Positions 1-5,529 of a DNA stretch of 64,000 nucleotides are shown here, piece after piece. This DNA comes from Geitlerinema sp. PCC 7407 (GTDB lineage: Bacteria > Cyanobacteriota > Cyanobacteriia > PCC-7407). Below the pieces are notes generated by a model that saw only the letters and a program-made list of their open reading frames with translations, was not told the origin of the DNA and ran no database searches. Location of the stretch: assembly GCF_000317045.1 (NCBI RefSeq), contig NC_019703.1, forward strand, positions 3,460,501-3,524,500, in the 5' to 3' direction. A program made the position numbers and the translations under genes. How positions within the stretch are numbered: the first letter of the stretch is position 1; every line of letters begins with the position of its first letter.

Positions 1-120
1 CGAGAGCCTGTTTCCTTTCCCATATCGAAATCGATGAAAGTAACTGGGCAAACTCTCACCCTCTAAAGGTTCAACGTATTCTAGTTGAAGTTGAGGTTGT
101 TCTAATTTGGGTTTAGGCAT
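1..120 (-). CDS. tniQ: TniQ family transposition protein, N-terminal fragment (cut by window edge)
   Basis: Reading leftward from ATG at 120 gives about 40 residues that contain EPLEGESLPSYFHRFR. This is the characteristic TniQ start, in which a Pro/Glu-Gly-Glu-Ser-Leu motif leads into a helix. In V-K CASTs the short TniQ bridges the Cas12k-guide complex and the TnsC filament. The start lies 48 bp after the tnsC stop, in the same direction, which is the standard CAST order. The gene continues past position 1, so its length cannot be judged and a longer TnsD-like form cannot be excluded. Confidence 0.85.
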   Translation of the reverse strand, partial: MPKPKLEQPQLQLEYVEPLEGESLPSYFHRFRYGKGNRLS

Positions 121-168
121 CGCTTAAATCCAGGTCGATTATTTGCTTGTGACCATTCAATGGAACAA

Positions 169-1098
169 CTATTTTCTTTTCTTACCTGCTTGTTTATGAT
201 TTGCTATTGCCAGCTTAAGTATGTCCTTAGTAATTTTGGGTGAACCTTGAATTACAGCCTCAATCGCAGCACTCCTCAGAATGGCATCAAGTGCGCGCAG
301 ACTATAGTTGGTAGACTGAATCAGAAGTTTAATCAATTCTTTTGATGTCAATCCTGATGGTTCTGGAAGTTTCAATACCTGTTTTTCCCAAATTGCTACC
401 GTTTTTGCAAACTCTGTAGCGCTCATTTTGTCAAAATGGTAGCGAAATTCAAATCTGCCATCCACTTGTTCATCTCTAGAGATGAGGGTAGTCAATCTAT
501 TAGTACCTACGAGAATAATGGACAGTTCGAGATCCTCGGTGTTGTAGATGTAGCTAAGTTCAGCTAAAGTTTCATACTTAAAGCGATTTGCCTCATCTAA
601 AATCAGTGTTTCGGTGCGGCGTAATTCAAGTGTTTCGAGCAATCGTTCTCGTAAGTCGTCTGTTGAACCTTGCAATGCGCGATTGCCCATAACCTGCAGC
701 AATCCTTTATGACATTGCTTTGGACCACAATTAGGAGTTACTTCCCAATAGACAACGGGCATGTGTCGTTGTTTACCGGATTGAGGTTGTACTGGAACAC
801 GAAGCTTATATGCCATGCAACCCATTGTTTTGCCAACTCCAGAATTACCTTCGACAATTCCAGATTCCCCCGCCAAACGTCGAGTATCTAGCCAATCATG
901 GAGATTGGTGACGGAGGTAAGTGGCACATAAAATTTCTTACGCAACCGCTTGATTTCAGCCTGTTTCTCTGGCGACAGTTGCTTGACTGATCCTAATTTT
1001 TCTGCGACTTTCACAGCGTTTGTAGCTGTCATTCCTGCATCTGTTTCTGCATCTGTTTCCGCATCTGTAGCTGGTACTTCAGCGTTTTTGGTTGTCAT
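169..1098 (-). CDS. tnsC: TnsC-like AAA+ ATPase of type V-K CAST
   Basis: 309 residues, slightly longer than the ~276-residue ShCAST TnsC. Walker A is GNSGVGKT (residues 84-91), Walker B is TLILDEAN (164-171), and a sensor-like VGTNR lies near 197-201. The family polymerises on DNA in an ATP-dependent way, marks the insertion site for TnsB and is disassembled by it. The core from about residue 40 follows V-K TnsC closely, including FYVPL, LHDWLD and IWEKQVLKLP. The N-terminus carries a low-complexity Thr-Asp-Ala-Glu repeat (residues 11-21) built on a short DNA repeat at about 1030-1075. Met23 is therefore an alternative start. No clear Shine-Dalgarno lies before either ATG. Unlike typical V-K loci, tnsC is separated from tnsB by about 930 bp. 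Confidence 0.9.
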   Translation of the reverse strand: MTTKNAEVPATDAETDAETDAGMTATNAVKVAEKLGSVKQLSPEKQAEIKRLRKKFYVPLTSVTNLHDWLDTRRLAGESGIVEGNSGVGKTMGCMAYKLRVPVQPQSGKQRHMPVVYWEVTPNCGPKQCHKGLLQVMGNRALQGSTDDLRERLLETLELRRTETLILDEANRFKYETLAELSYIYNTEDLELSIILVGTNRLTTLISRDEQVDGRFEFRYHFDKMSATEFAKTVAIWEKQVLKLPEPSGLTSKELIKLLIQSTNYSLRALDAILRSAAIEAVIQGSPKITKDILKLAIANHKQAGKKRK

Positions 1099-2030
1099 AA
1101 AATTTCTGGGTAGGTTGGCAAAAGGTTCGTGTAAAACTGGGCAGTTAGGCAGGTAGTATCTAAAGCTTGAAAAATAATGGTACTCAGGTACTATTGTTTG
1201 TGGTAAAGAATATTCAATGTGTAAAAAAACTTAATAAAGCTAGTTAGGAGAATAAGCGAAGGTTCGGTATCCTAGTGCTTGCAAGGTTTTGAAGAGGTTT
1301 TCCTGCACCATCTTTCCACTTAACAAGAGGCAGTATCTTGGCGGATTGACAAATCTTTCGCCGATCCCATTCGCCCCACAACTAAAGACGCGCTAATCGC
1401 TGAAGTCCTCCTAAAGAGGACTGGATCAAAGTGTCATTGAGGACACATTTTGAAGATTGGTGGAGATTGAGCAGATGATGCGGAGATAAGGAAAAGGGGG
1501 GACGCAGAGAGCAAGAACGTTGCCTGAAATCCCCATGTCTCCGTGTCTCGGTGTCTGTGTCGAACCCACTTCCCAACTGCCGAATGCATTTGATCAGAAT
1601 TCAGTCCGTTTTACTAACTTCTATTAGTCCTGAACTGGAAATCAGCAGAGGATGAACGAAGCGACTGAATTTCAGCAGTTTTGCCTATCAATCAGTCCCT
1701 TGCACTCAATTACAAATATAAAATGCTGCACATCGAGAAGTAGAATGACGATCGCTGGTATTCGTGTTGTTGAACGACTCGTCAGTAGGCAAAGTTTAAT
1801 GTGATTGGCGATCGCTGGAGATTTCAATAATTGTCTCTGCTTAATCCAACTTCCAATCCAAATTGCTCTTGGGCACCTGAAGTTACCTTACATTCCTCAA
1901 CAGGTTACTGGAGACGCAGAACATTCCAAGCATTAAATAGAAATTTTGATTCCAGAGGCGGATAAGAGACTATTTCCTCCATTCCAGAAACTCTGAATGC
2001 AAGAATGGTCGAAATTTAAGGACAAAGCTC
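1099..2030. other. Non-coding spacer between tnsB and tnsC (about 930 bp)
   Basis: In the V-K CASTs I know, tnsB and tnsC are adjacent or overlapping, so this spacer is abnormal. No reading frame in it looks like a real protein. It holds a perfect 7-bp stem (AGTCCTC / GAGGACT at 1404-1422). It also holds a purine-rich stretch followed by a chtctccgtgtct-type low-complexity tract (about 1480-1565), of a kind common in intergenic DNA of filamentous cyanobacteria. One HIP1 octamer lies near 1807. It may be the scar of an inserted and decayed element, and it probably carries a promoter for tnsC-tniQ, although none stands out. Confidence 0.6.
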
Positions 2031-4118
2031 CTAGAAATCCTGTATCATCTCATCCCAATCATAAACTTCTACCTCAGGTATTTCAATATCACCCTCAGAT
2101 ACTACTGTCTCCTTATCTTCTGCACTACCAGAACTCCTAGTATTCAACTCTGAACTTTCCTCCTCCATTCCTTCTGAGCTACTTGCTTCTGAACCCGAAC
2201 TATCTCCAGAGGTACTAGGGTCAGAAGTTTCACTACCATCATCACTAGGTAGTGAAACTTCTGAAGTTGGTAGTTCTTCATCTTGAAGAATACTGTCTGC
2301 TGGTACTTCATGGAAATCATCATGTTCAGATCTCCTACGCTGCTTCCTGCTTAATTTTTGGATTTCTGCAACACGAGAATCACGATAGTCAATTTCTCTT
2401 AAAACAGACAAGACAGTTTGATTCGTAACAGCTTTTCCGTCCTCCCTCAACCCTGCGTTAATTACTTCAAGTTCATCTAACGAAAGACGCTCACACTCTA
2501 AATCACGAGGATGTATGCGAGCTATAAATTTACCTAACCTGTCCTCTGACTCATAGCTGTAAGCAAACATTGTAGTAACATCTCTGGGATCATAACGGAG
2601 AGTCACGTATTCACCAGCATAGGAACTTAAGCAATCACCACGGTATATAAGGTTCTTGAAGTAAACATCTCCATATTTCTGAACCCTACGATGAGCTTCT
2701 TTCATTAAGCAAATATCTAGTTCTCTCTCATCGACAAATTCTAGAATGTCTTCTTGTGTGGCTTGCCAACGTTGATAGCGTGTTTGAGTTTTTACCTTTG
2801 GATGTTGCCTCCGGTTGTAATTATCAACGAGATACTTAACTAGAAGCATTTCAAGGTCGGTAAGGGTTAGGCAAGCCTCCTTTTCCGCATCTTTAGGGCG
2901 GTCTTTAACATTGGAGCCTTTATACCCTGGTATTTGAGAGAAAAACTCAGTGTTTAGAGTTTTAAAGATCCGTTCAATTCCGCCTCCATCTGAGGGGCGG
3001 AGACGAAGGTAATGAACAAAACCCAGTTTCTCTGAAACCTGTGAAATATGTTCACAGTCGTGCTCTGAACCTCCATCCGTAAAAAGAACACAAGGTTTTC
3101 CCTGTATCCCCCATTCATTTTCGAGGTTGTAATCTGGGCCATAGTTCTTAGGCAGAATTGCGTGGCGTAGTGCAAGAGCGACTTCTTTAGACCCAGGACC
3201 CAAGAATCCAAGATGGAACCCAACCACACATCCAGAGTAGGTATCCAAGATGATTGTCAACACGGGACACCCTATTTCAACACCATCCTTATCTACTAAT
3301 AAAACATCTGCTCTCGTGCTATCAACTTGCCAAACATCTTGGCTCCATCTCACAGGAATACTTTGTCCACAACGAGTTTTGACATGATGTTGATGTGGAG
3401 ACTGTCCTGCATGTCTTACCGTTTTATTCTCCTGATTAATCAAAGGCTCTAAGATGCGGTAGACAGCCATCTTGCTTGGGTATTGCCCATCTTGAAGACC
3501 AAATTCTAATCTGGCTAATTTCTGCACCCTTACAAAGACTTGGTATTGATTCATTCTCTGCGAGCCTTTGTTTCGATTGATGTAAGTGTCGATGATGTAA
3601 CTCGACCATTTAAAGTCCTGATATTTTTCCTCCAAACGAAACTTTTCAGGAATTGGGTATAGTTTATCGATTCGAGGAGTACCCTTATCAGCTCTTGAGT
3701 TAGAGGCGAAGGCTTCTGAGTTTTTCTCTAAATATTTGTTGATTTCCCTTTGAATCGATCGGTCACTTAAACCAAGCTGCTTAGCAGCTTCTTTTTTCCT
3801 TTGTTTACGGGTATCCTCATCCCTAGCAGCGCATATAGCTCGGATCAATTTGAGCCTGAGCTTCATATCTTTTTCTTTGGGTTCCTTCTTTTTCTTGGAG
3901 GAATAAGTGGCTTTAGTGGCATTGTCTGCTTCGTCAGAATCATCCAGGTCCTTTTCAAGCAGTTCATCCTGGTTCAGTTCTGAAGAATTTTGCGTTACAT
4001 CTGAATCTGCTTCCAACGATGTATTATTAGCCACAATATTTCTCTCAAGTCTGATTAATACACTTTTTCTACGTTGCAACGGATAGACGAGAAATGTGGA
4101 GCACATATCTCTGTCCAC
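2031..4118 (-). CDS. tnsB: TnsB-like DDE transposase of type V-K CAST, with long acidic C-terminal linker
   Basis: 695 residues if the 4118 ATG is used. A GTG at residue 29 (4034) gives a length nearer the family. The rve/DDE catalytic triad is visible as D266 (WQVDSTRADVLLVD), D348 (LFTDGGSEH) and E382 (GGGIERIFKTLN). A helix-turn-helix region lies at about residues 85-135 and a Mu-type C-terminal beta-barrel follows the catalytic core. TnsB binds the end repeats and performs strand transfer. Residues ~596-677 are a Ser/Glu/Asp-rich linker, after which EVEVYDWDEMIQDF matches the C-terminal hook that in ShCAST TnsB (about 584 aa) contacts TnsC. The extra length is mainly this linker plus the N-terminus. 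It is transcribed inward from the left end, and its start region adjoins the end repeats, so autoregulation by TnsB binding is plausible. Confidence 0.92.
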   Translation of the reverse strand: MDRDMCSTFLVYPLQRRKSVLIRLERNIVANNTSLEADSDVTQNSSELNQDELLEKDLDDSDEADNATKATYSSKKKKEPKEKDMKLRLKLIRAICAARDEDTRKQRKKEAAKQLGLSDRSIQREINKYLEKNSEAFASNSRADKGTPRIDKLYPIPEKFRLEEKYQDFKWSSYIIDTYINRNKGSQRMNQYQVFVRVQKLARLEFGLQDGQYPSKMAVYRILEPLINQENKTVRHAGQSPHQHHVKTRCGQSIPVRWSQDVWQVDSTRADVLLVDKDGVEIGCPVLTIILDTYSGCVVGFHLGFLGPGSKEVALALRHAILPKNYGPDYNLENEWGIQGKPCVLFTDGGSEHDCEHISQVSEKLGFVHYLRLRPSDGGGIERIFKTLNTEFFSQIPGYKGSNVKDRPKDAEKEACLTLTDLEMLLVKYLVDNYNRRQHPKVKTQTRYQRWQATQEDILEFVDERELDICLMKEAHRRVQKYGDVYFKNLIYRGDCLSSYAGEYVTLRYDPRDVTTMFAYSYESEDRLGKFIARIHPRDLECERLSLDELEVINAGLREDGKAVTNQTVLSVLREIDYRDSRVAEIQKLSRKQRRRSEHDDFHEVPADSILQDEELPTSEVSLPSDDGSETSDPSTSGDSSGSEASSSEGMEEESSELNTRSSGSAEDKETVVSEGDIEIPEVEVYDWDEMIQDF

Positions 4119-4154
4119 ATAAGTTCGCTTGTACTACATAGTAAAATCCGTTTC

Positions 4155-4355
4155 GGAAAAAGACAACTATTTCGTGAAATATGGGTAGCCCCTGAAAAAA
4201 CGTGTTTCTGGAAAACGACAACTAATGTGTGACACGTATACAGATTTGCCACAAGTAAGCTCGAAAAGCCTAAAACCGTTTACCTGTAAGAATTGCAGAA
4301 ATTTTCATCGCGACATTATTGTGTGAAAAAGCGACAAATAATTCGTACTTGTACA
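4155..4355 (-). repeat. CAST left end: four TnsB-type binding repeats plus terminal TGTACA
   Basis: Four copies of a ~22-bp motif are visible. On the + strand they follow the pattern GGAAAA-(G/C)GACAA-CTAAT-nnGTG: 4155-4176, 4210-4231, 4303-4325 and 4325-4346. Read inward on the minus strand each contains a (A/T)TTGTCG-like core, as in known V-K ends. The outermost copy abuts TGTACA at 4350-4355. The two outer repeats are adjacent and the two inner ones are ~55 bp apart, with a ~70 bp gap between the pairs. The inner repeats lie 40-110 bp upstream of the tnsB start. Confidence 0.85.
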
Positions 4356-4625: not shown

Positions 4626-4892
4626 ATGTCAGAACAATTGCCGGAGAATTCGATCATTTCAGTGGAACGACAGGGTTCGTCGCCACCCAAACTATGGGAA
4701 AGCGAAGCCTTGCTAAAAGCGATTGAGTCTGGCCTGATTAGCCGCGTTGACTCTCCCCGGGCCAAAGAACTGGCAAGGGTCGGTATGCCGTGCAAGATAC
4801 TTGCACCAAGGCAGGAATGGAGAACGGGGTATATCCGGGTGAGGGTTGAGTTTGTGCCGGGTGAGCTACCTCAAGAGCAAACCGAGCAGTAA
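4626..4892 (+). CDS. KGK-domain-like small protein, copy 1
   Basis: 88 residues. It is the first of three tandem paralogues that share the start MSE-(2-3)-P, a central (G)xPC(K/E)(I/V)L segment and the end (R/K)VEFVPxELPQ. The pattern GMPCKIL-x-P-x-x-x-W-x-x-G-Y-I-x-V-R-V-E-F matches the cyanobacterial KGK domain (PF08872 type), whose function is unknown. The eponymous Lys-Gly-Lys is RTGY here, so the motif is degenerate. Its central part (PKLWESEALLKAIESG) is the most divergent of the three. The gene is 42 bp from the next copy and probably cotranscribed with it. Confidence 0.75.
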   Translation: MSEQLPENSIISVERQGSSPPKLWESEALLKAIESGLISRVDSPRAKELARVGMPCKILAPRQEWRTGYIRVRVEFVPGELPQEQTEQ

Positions 4893-4934
4893 TAGACTGC
4901 AACGTCAAAAAGTTGTCATTTTTGGTCTTTTTCC

Positions 4935-5207
4935 ATGTCAGAAGAATTGCCAGTAGATGCAGTAATCGCAGTGAACGATGATGTTCCAATGCACGAGCGG
5001 TTCTTTACCAACGAGTGGTTTCTAGAAAAAATCCGTAGTAGTTGTGATTACAGAATTTCGTCAGCCAGCCCCATAGGCGAGCGTCTTCTTGCGGAAGGAA
5101 TACCATGCAAAGTGCTTGAACCAGGCCAATTTTGGGAAACAGGGTATATCCAGGTACGGGTTGAGTTTGTGCCGGATGAGTTACCTCAGGCATCGAGCGA
5201 ACAGTAA
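4935..5207 (+). CDS. KGK-domain-like small protein, copy 2
   Basis: 90 residues. It shares DAVIAVN near its start with copy 3, and GIPCKVLEPG plus VRVEFVPDELPQ with copy 1, so the three arose by tandem duplication. The KGK position reads ETGY. No signal peptide, membrane segment or known catalytic motif is seen, and a small cytosolic protein is the simplest reading. It sits in the middle of the array, 40 bp before copy 3. Confidence 0.75.
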   Translation: MSEELPVDAVIAVNDDVPMHERFFTNEWFLEKIRSSCDYRISSASPIGERLLAEGIPCKVLEPGQFWETGYIQVRVEFVPDELPQASSEQ

Positions 5208-5247
5208 CGGACTGAAAGTCGAAAAGTAGATATTTTGAGCTTTTTCA

Positions 5248-5529
5248 ATGTCAGAACACTTTCCATTAGATGCAGTAATCGCGGTCAACTCCGAGGTTGG
5301 CATGTACACTAAGCTTTTTAGATCTGACTGGCTAATATCTCAAATTCAAAAAGGTGCAAATGCTGAGCTAGGTGGCTCAGCTGGCAATTTTTTGTCAGAT
5401 GATGGATTGCCCTGCGAGGTTCTCCGGCCTGGAATGCATTGGCGGTCAGGAAAACTTCACATCAAGATCAAGTTTGTACCTGGTGAGCTGCCACAAGAGC
5501 AAAGCGATCAAGCTAGCGATCAGATTTAA
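5248..5529 (+). CDS. KGK-domain-like small protein, copy 3
   Basis: 93 residues. Of the three it keeps the best KGK-like signature: W-R-S-G-K at the KGK position followed by LHIKIKFVPGELPQ. It has a short extra C-terminal tail (QSDQASDQI). It is the last gene of the tandem array and is followed at 5547-5582 by a strong hairpin that probably terminates the array transcript. Function unknown. Confidence 0.75.
   Translation: MSEHFPLDAVIAVNSEVGMYTKLFRSDWLISQIQKGANAELGGSAGNFLSDDGLPCEVLRPGMHWRSGKLHIKIKFVPGELPQEQSDQASDQI

Follow-up and report, generated by a model that had tools for sequence, protein, structure and literature searches.

The window analysed here, 64,000 nucleotides of the closed 4,681,111-bp genome of Geitlerinema sp. 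PCC 7407 (bases 3460501-3524500; window position = genome position - 3460500), opens on what is very probably the end of a complete type V-K CRISPR-associated transposon (CAST) of 59.7 kb. This reading takes the window edge and the genome to its left as a single unit, which extends over 59,689 bp from the tRNA-Cys side to window position 4355. A preliminary description, made from the window alone, had proposed a type V-K CAST at its edge; in the closed genome the full set of V-K components was recovered, together with matching ends and an anchor guide. The kind of element is already known. What is unusual here is its large size, its cargo, its divergence and its apparent patchwork history.

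Transposition genes and ends

The following features delimit the element and hold its transposition genes.

Window 4161-4355, minus strand: right end, with four TnsB-type sites (4161, 4216, 4311 and 4332) and a terminal TGTACA at 4350-4355; outer flank AGAAT
Window 2031-4118, minus strand: tnsB, 695 aa as the longest frame; DDE residues and C-terminal hook kept
Window 1099-2030: non-coding gap between tnsC and tnsB, 932 bp, single-copy
Window 169-1098, minus strand: tnsC, 309 aa; Walker A GNSGVGKT, Walker B LILDE
Window 1-120, minus strand: 5' end of tniQ, which runs leftwards out of the window (whole gene genome 3460093-3460620, 175 aa)
Genome 3405167-3405288: left end, with four TnsB-type sites just inside 3405167

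Read from the right end, the gene order is tnsB, tnsC, tniQ, and TnsB carries no TnsA domain (a separate tnsA gene fell outside the profile search). The preliminary description had recognised a TniQ start, TnsC and TnsB in CAST order. The three frames are open and matched the solved ShCAST proteins in phmmer (TnsB 9e-129, TnsC 5e-60 and TniQ 9e-43), ShCAST being the nearest solved relative. That tnsB and tnsC are intact and have kept the TnsB triad and hook and the TnsC Walker motifs was likewise confirmed in the translated frames, the hook reading VEVYDWDEMIQDF. In the relatives read in detail (L059, L085 and L116) tnsB and tnsC abut, whereas in the Geitlerinema element they are separated by 932 bp; repeats or genomic copies that would account for this gap were sought and none was found.

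The end that had been recognised inside the window is indeed present, with TGTACA at its tip and four TnsB-type sites inside it. It had been labelled the left end; in published usage, however, the side upstream of tnsB is called the right end (PMC11406308, PMC9938897). A second end with TGTACA, as had been predicted, was found near tRNA-Cys with the same TnsB sites, and the two ends match in their TGT termini and repeated sites. The end-repeat pattern occurs four times per end and once more, as an isolated match, in approximately 124 kb. As these end repeats themselves served to derive the pattern, the number of sites at the ends is no independent test; the informative point is that one motif is common to both ends, with no additional cluster in between. 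Searching the 59.7 kb with the end pattern revealed no inner CAST ends. A 5-bp target-site duplication, which is expected for an unrearranged single insertion, was absent. The left flank reads AAAAG and the right one AGAAT, and the predicted copy of AGAAT at the other end does not exist. For a replicative transposon the duplication could have been lost through an adjacent deletion. Immediately beyond the right end, at window 4626-5529, lie three small ORFs in tandem (88-93 aa) that resemble paralogs of one another (MSExLPxDAVIAVN...).

Guide module and candidate regulator

Cas12k, tracrRNA, array, delocalised guide and cargo had been predicted to lie outside the window, and each was located to the left of position 1. 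The features at the tRNA-Cys side are:

Genome 3405075-3405145, plus strand: tRNA-Cys
Genome 3405372-3405398, minus strand: truncated repeat and anchor spacer
Genome 3405789-3405979, minus strand: CRISPR array with 3 repeats
Genome about 3406094-3406247, minus strand: tracrRNA region
Genome 3406549-3408825, minus strand: cas12k, 752-758 aa; NF038191
Genome 3409013-3409354 (L006:8013-8354), plus strand: hth113, open frame for a 113-aa HTH protein
Genome 3409974-3410321, plus strand: hth115

The gene cas12k, present as a single copy in the genome, lies 51.7-54.0 kb left of the window. The preliminary description would have been abandoned if no cas12k were found within approximately 25 kb, a rule that would have misled because the Dpd cargo of approximately 41 kb stands in between. 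Cas12k matched NF038191 at 2.5e-227 (756 bits against a cut-off of 150) and ShCas12k at 5e-107. It lacks the catalytic Asp of RuvC-I (GVSFS here; other Cas12k proteins have GVSLG or similar, also without Asp). In the Cas12k tree it forms a clade with the proteins of G039, G141 and G206 (support 100/100) that is separate from 13 others including ShCAST-like ones.

The interval between cas12k and tRNA-Cys contains a conserved tracrRNA region, the array of three repeats and a truncated repeat, behind which stands AGGCAGGGGTCTGCAAA. Support for the tracrRNA region comes from its 11 matches in other V-K loci, all of which share its position and strand relative to cas12k, lying 198-491 bp past the end of the cas12k match on the cas12k strand. 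Repeat/anti-repeat pairing alone identified a tracrRNA no better than in shuffled sequence, and the Rfam search matched the tRNA alone. Of the 17 nt of the anchor spacer, 15 agree with tRNA-Cys, and the matched stretch immediately follows a GTA PAM, at 72 nt from the element end; in a shuffled-tRNA control none of 2000 matched the anchor spacer behind a repeat end. In published V-K elements the anchor spacer is likewise 17 nt long, the PAM is GTN and the left end lies 46-82 nt away (PMC9938897), a range in which this distance falls. A search for targets of the array spacers among plasmids gave none that was convincing.

Three types of cas12k regulator have been described, CvkR, Arc_1 and Arc_2 (PMC9938897). 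Among 291 cyanobacterial genomes, strong homologs of hth113 (68-94% identity) were arranged head-to-head with cas12k in 22 of 25 cases, these pairs being counted by hand from two match lists. Against the PDB (phmmer, E up to 10) hth113 gave no match, including to CvkR, a MerR-type repressor whose structure (7XN2) is assumed to be among the searched entries. Judged by its sequence and gene neighbourhood, the hth113 family is a candidate fourth type of cas12k regulator, and as such a testable lead on the control of V-K CASTs.

Cargo, relics and history of the element

Between hth115 and tniQ the element contains:

Genome 3413712-3455177: Dpd and other cargo, about 41 kb
Genome 3455496-3456790, minus strand: orf246 and orf196
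Genome 3456816-3457892 (L004:4816-5892), plus strand: xer, a XerC/D-type tyrosine recombinase
Genome 3457923-3458426, minus strand: frag167, behind a TnsB core broken by stops
Genome 3459050-3459964, minus strand: frag304, a decayed TnsB core

An almost complete Dpd cluster for 7-deazaguanine DNA modification and restriction is carried within the element. DpdA, E, F, G, H, J and K were above their NCBIfam cut-offs; the N-terminal 350 aa of DpdD, the half of the gene that was searched, matched at 6.9e-70, and DpdI was weak, far below cut-off. Among the preQ0 synthesis proteins, QueC scored above its cut-off, while the scores of QueD and QueE stayed below theirs. The candidate for DpdB is a protein of the DGQHR/DndB family, and a DpdC-like domain is fused to the N-terminus of DpdA. 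DpdA exceeded its cut-off in 13 of the 291 cyanobacterial genomes, and only here was a V-K TnsB found on the same contig, most of the others being drafts. A literature search revealed no published report of Dpd in a CAST, which by itself is weak evidence. The cargo also encodes a 2144-aa protein (genome 3427056-3433490, L002:6056-12490) for which Pfam, NCBIfam and PADLOC gave no match; a radical SAM protein encoded nearby shows a weak viperin-like match.

The cassette of xer, orf196 and orf246 has the cargo on one side and the TnsB relics on the other. V-K CASTs are described as lacking a resolvase, and how their native hosts handle cointegrates is unknown (2024 review, PMC11406308). In other genomes xer homologs occurred 7 times within 10 kb of cas12k, against approximately 0.3 expected at random placement; these counts were entered manually, and an excess would also arise if mobile genes cluster in islands. 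In G104, G141, G144 and G117 they lie 1-2 kb upstream of a long cas12k. That the xer-orf196 cassette, recurring close to cas12k, supplies these CASTs with the resolvase they lack for their cointegrates is possible but seems quite unlikely; the cassette is a testable lead on V-K cointegrate resolution. A general V-K resolvase was rejected: xer was within 10 kb in 1 of 80 V-K TnsB loci, and xer with orf196 is also found outside CASTs.

Two decayed TnsB-core relics, frag167 and frag304, lie beside tniQ. Frag304 no longer has the N-terminal DNA-binding domains, the hook or the first catalytic Asp, and its placement in the tree had weak support. Core-only TnsB ORFs with similar limits, of at least two origins, were also seen in Nostoc (L059:13175-13864 and L085:13255-13959) and at tRNA-Cys loci (L148:8043-8711, L149:about 290-955 and L150:8645-9298). 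A conserved accessory TnsB core was considered for them and rejected. Decay is preferred because the ORFs are polyphyletic, have very long branches, contain stops in L149 and L150 and show a dN/dS of about 0.5; another role is possible. Between the two Nostoc CASTs the DNA identity is 72% for tnsB, 76% for tnsC and 87% for tniQ, and 94.5% for the adjoining TnsB core, another sharp change of identity inside CASTs.

A strong breakpoint is present at the other side of the element. From hth113 inward, approximately 3.4 kb (genome 3409002-3412367) are about 94% identical in DNA to G250:C23, whereas the adjoining Cas12k proteins of the two elements are 28% identical. This change from 94% DNA to 28% protein identity at cas12k suggests exchange of guide modules among V-K elements that home to one tRNA gene. 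Because of the breakpoint, the TnsB relics and the mismatched flanks, it is somewhat probable that the element is a mosaic, produced by repeated V-K homing to the same tRNA-Cys gene and recombination; one strong breakpoint, with relics of uncertain origin as support, suggests such a history.

The steps of transposition can be modelled on the established biochemistry of ShCAST, mobility and expression in Geitlerinema being predicted. Cas12k with the tracrRNA and the 17-nt anchor guide would bind tRNA-Cys behind the GTA PAM, where TniQ and TnsC would assemble. TnsB would then join both ends approximately 70 bp downstream of the PAM in a copy-type transposition, which is proposed because no TnsA was seen, and the array guides could direct transfer to other replicons. 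Repeated homing with recombination would leave TnsB-core relics at tniQ and flanks that do not match, and would have exchanged the cas12k/left-end module.

The absence of a target-site duplication and the two mismatches of the anchor guide to the tRNA count against this explanation, and they bear on its rivals. If two independent elements abutted here, one contributing the cas12k/tRNA-Cys end and the other the tnsB end, the 59.7 kb would not be one mobile unit; the missing duplication and the relics beside tniQ would fit, and tandem V-K units are known elsewhere, e.g. L116. The same four-site TnsB pattern at both outer ends and the lack of inner ends make this arrangement improbable. An old insertion that has lost its mobility would be consistent with the mismatched flanks, the guide mismatches and the relic TnsB genes. 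However, tnsB, tnsC, tniQ, cas12k and hth113 are all open and the DDE and Walker motifs are kept, so that such a fossil appears possible but the less likely state. The distance of more than 50 kb between cas12k and tniQ might suggest that a Tn7-like element without CRISPR targeting is linked to cas12k by accident. Yet TnsB, TnsC and TniQ are of V-K type, and this notion, of negligible probability, is already contradicted by the agreeing end motifs and by an anchor guide that targets the gene adjoining the left end. A single V-K CAST stays the preferred reading.

Relatives and known CRISPR-associated transposons

V-K loci at the same attachment gene, tRNA-Cys, were found in G141, G206, G104, G144, G179, G158, G250 and G065, and in G141, G206, G144, G179 and G158 the anchor guide is nearly the same as in Geitlerinema. 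Those tested have a related long Cas12k, and some have the xer cassette or hth113/hth115. No Dpd was seen in the stretches read, which are on draft contigs, with the tns genes, where found, on other contigs. A first search had suggested that TnsB is missing from G104, G144, G179 and G039; orphan Cas12k without transposase was rejected for G104 and G144 as a more sensitive search gave intact tnsB-tnsC-tniQ sets on other contigs. The 17-nt anchor design is directed to tRNA-Cys in five related loci (L148, L150, L200, L202 and L203), to tRNA-Ala in L180, L201 and L205 and to tRNA-Val in L204; in L199 no anchor guide of this design was found. The tRNA-Cys elements L199 and L200, from two genera, share a CRISPR spacer (L199:8243 and L200:8337) that is identical across the 38 bases read, and their cas12k genes have a dN/dS of about 0.08.

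Like known Dpd systems, the cargo combines DpdA, D, E, F, G, H, J and K matches with QueC/D/E in one cluster; it differs in the DpdC-DpdA fusion, the DGQHR/DndB-family DpdB candidate, the weak DpdI and its carriage by a CAST. With ShCAST/Tn7747, AcCAST and AnCAST (PMC11406308, PMC9938897) the element has in common tnsB-tnsC-tniQ from the right end, followed by cargo; a small regulator gene head-to-head with cas12k, a tracrRNA and an array; and a truncated repeat with a 17-nt anchor spacer, the left end at a tRNA gene and a GTN PAM. It differs from them in the Dpd cargo, the TnsB relics, the 932-bp tnsB-tnsC gap and the missing target-site duplication. Its Cas12k shares no more than about 38% identity with the ones compared and belongs to a separate clade, of which it provides a closed-genome example, and its regulator gene is not detectably the CvkR of known V-K CASTs. 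Finally, with a DNA modification-restriction cluster of approximately 41 kb, this V-K element reaches 59.7 kb, more than double the size of the well-studied AnCAST (24,963 nt).
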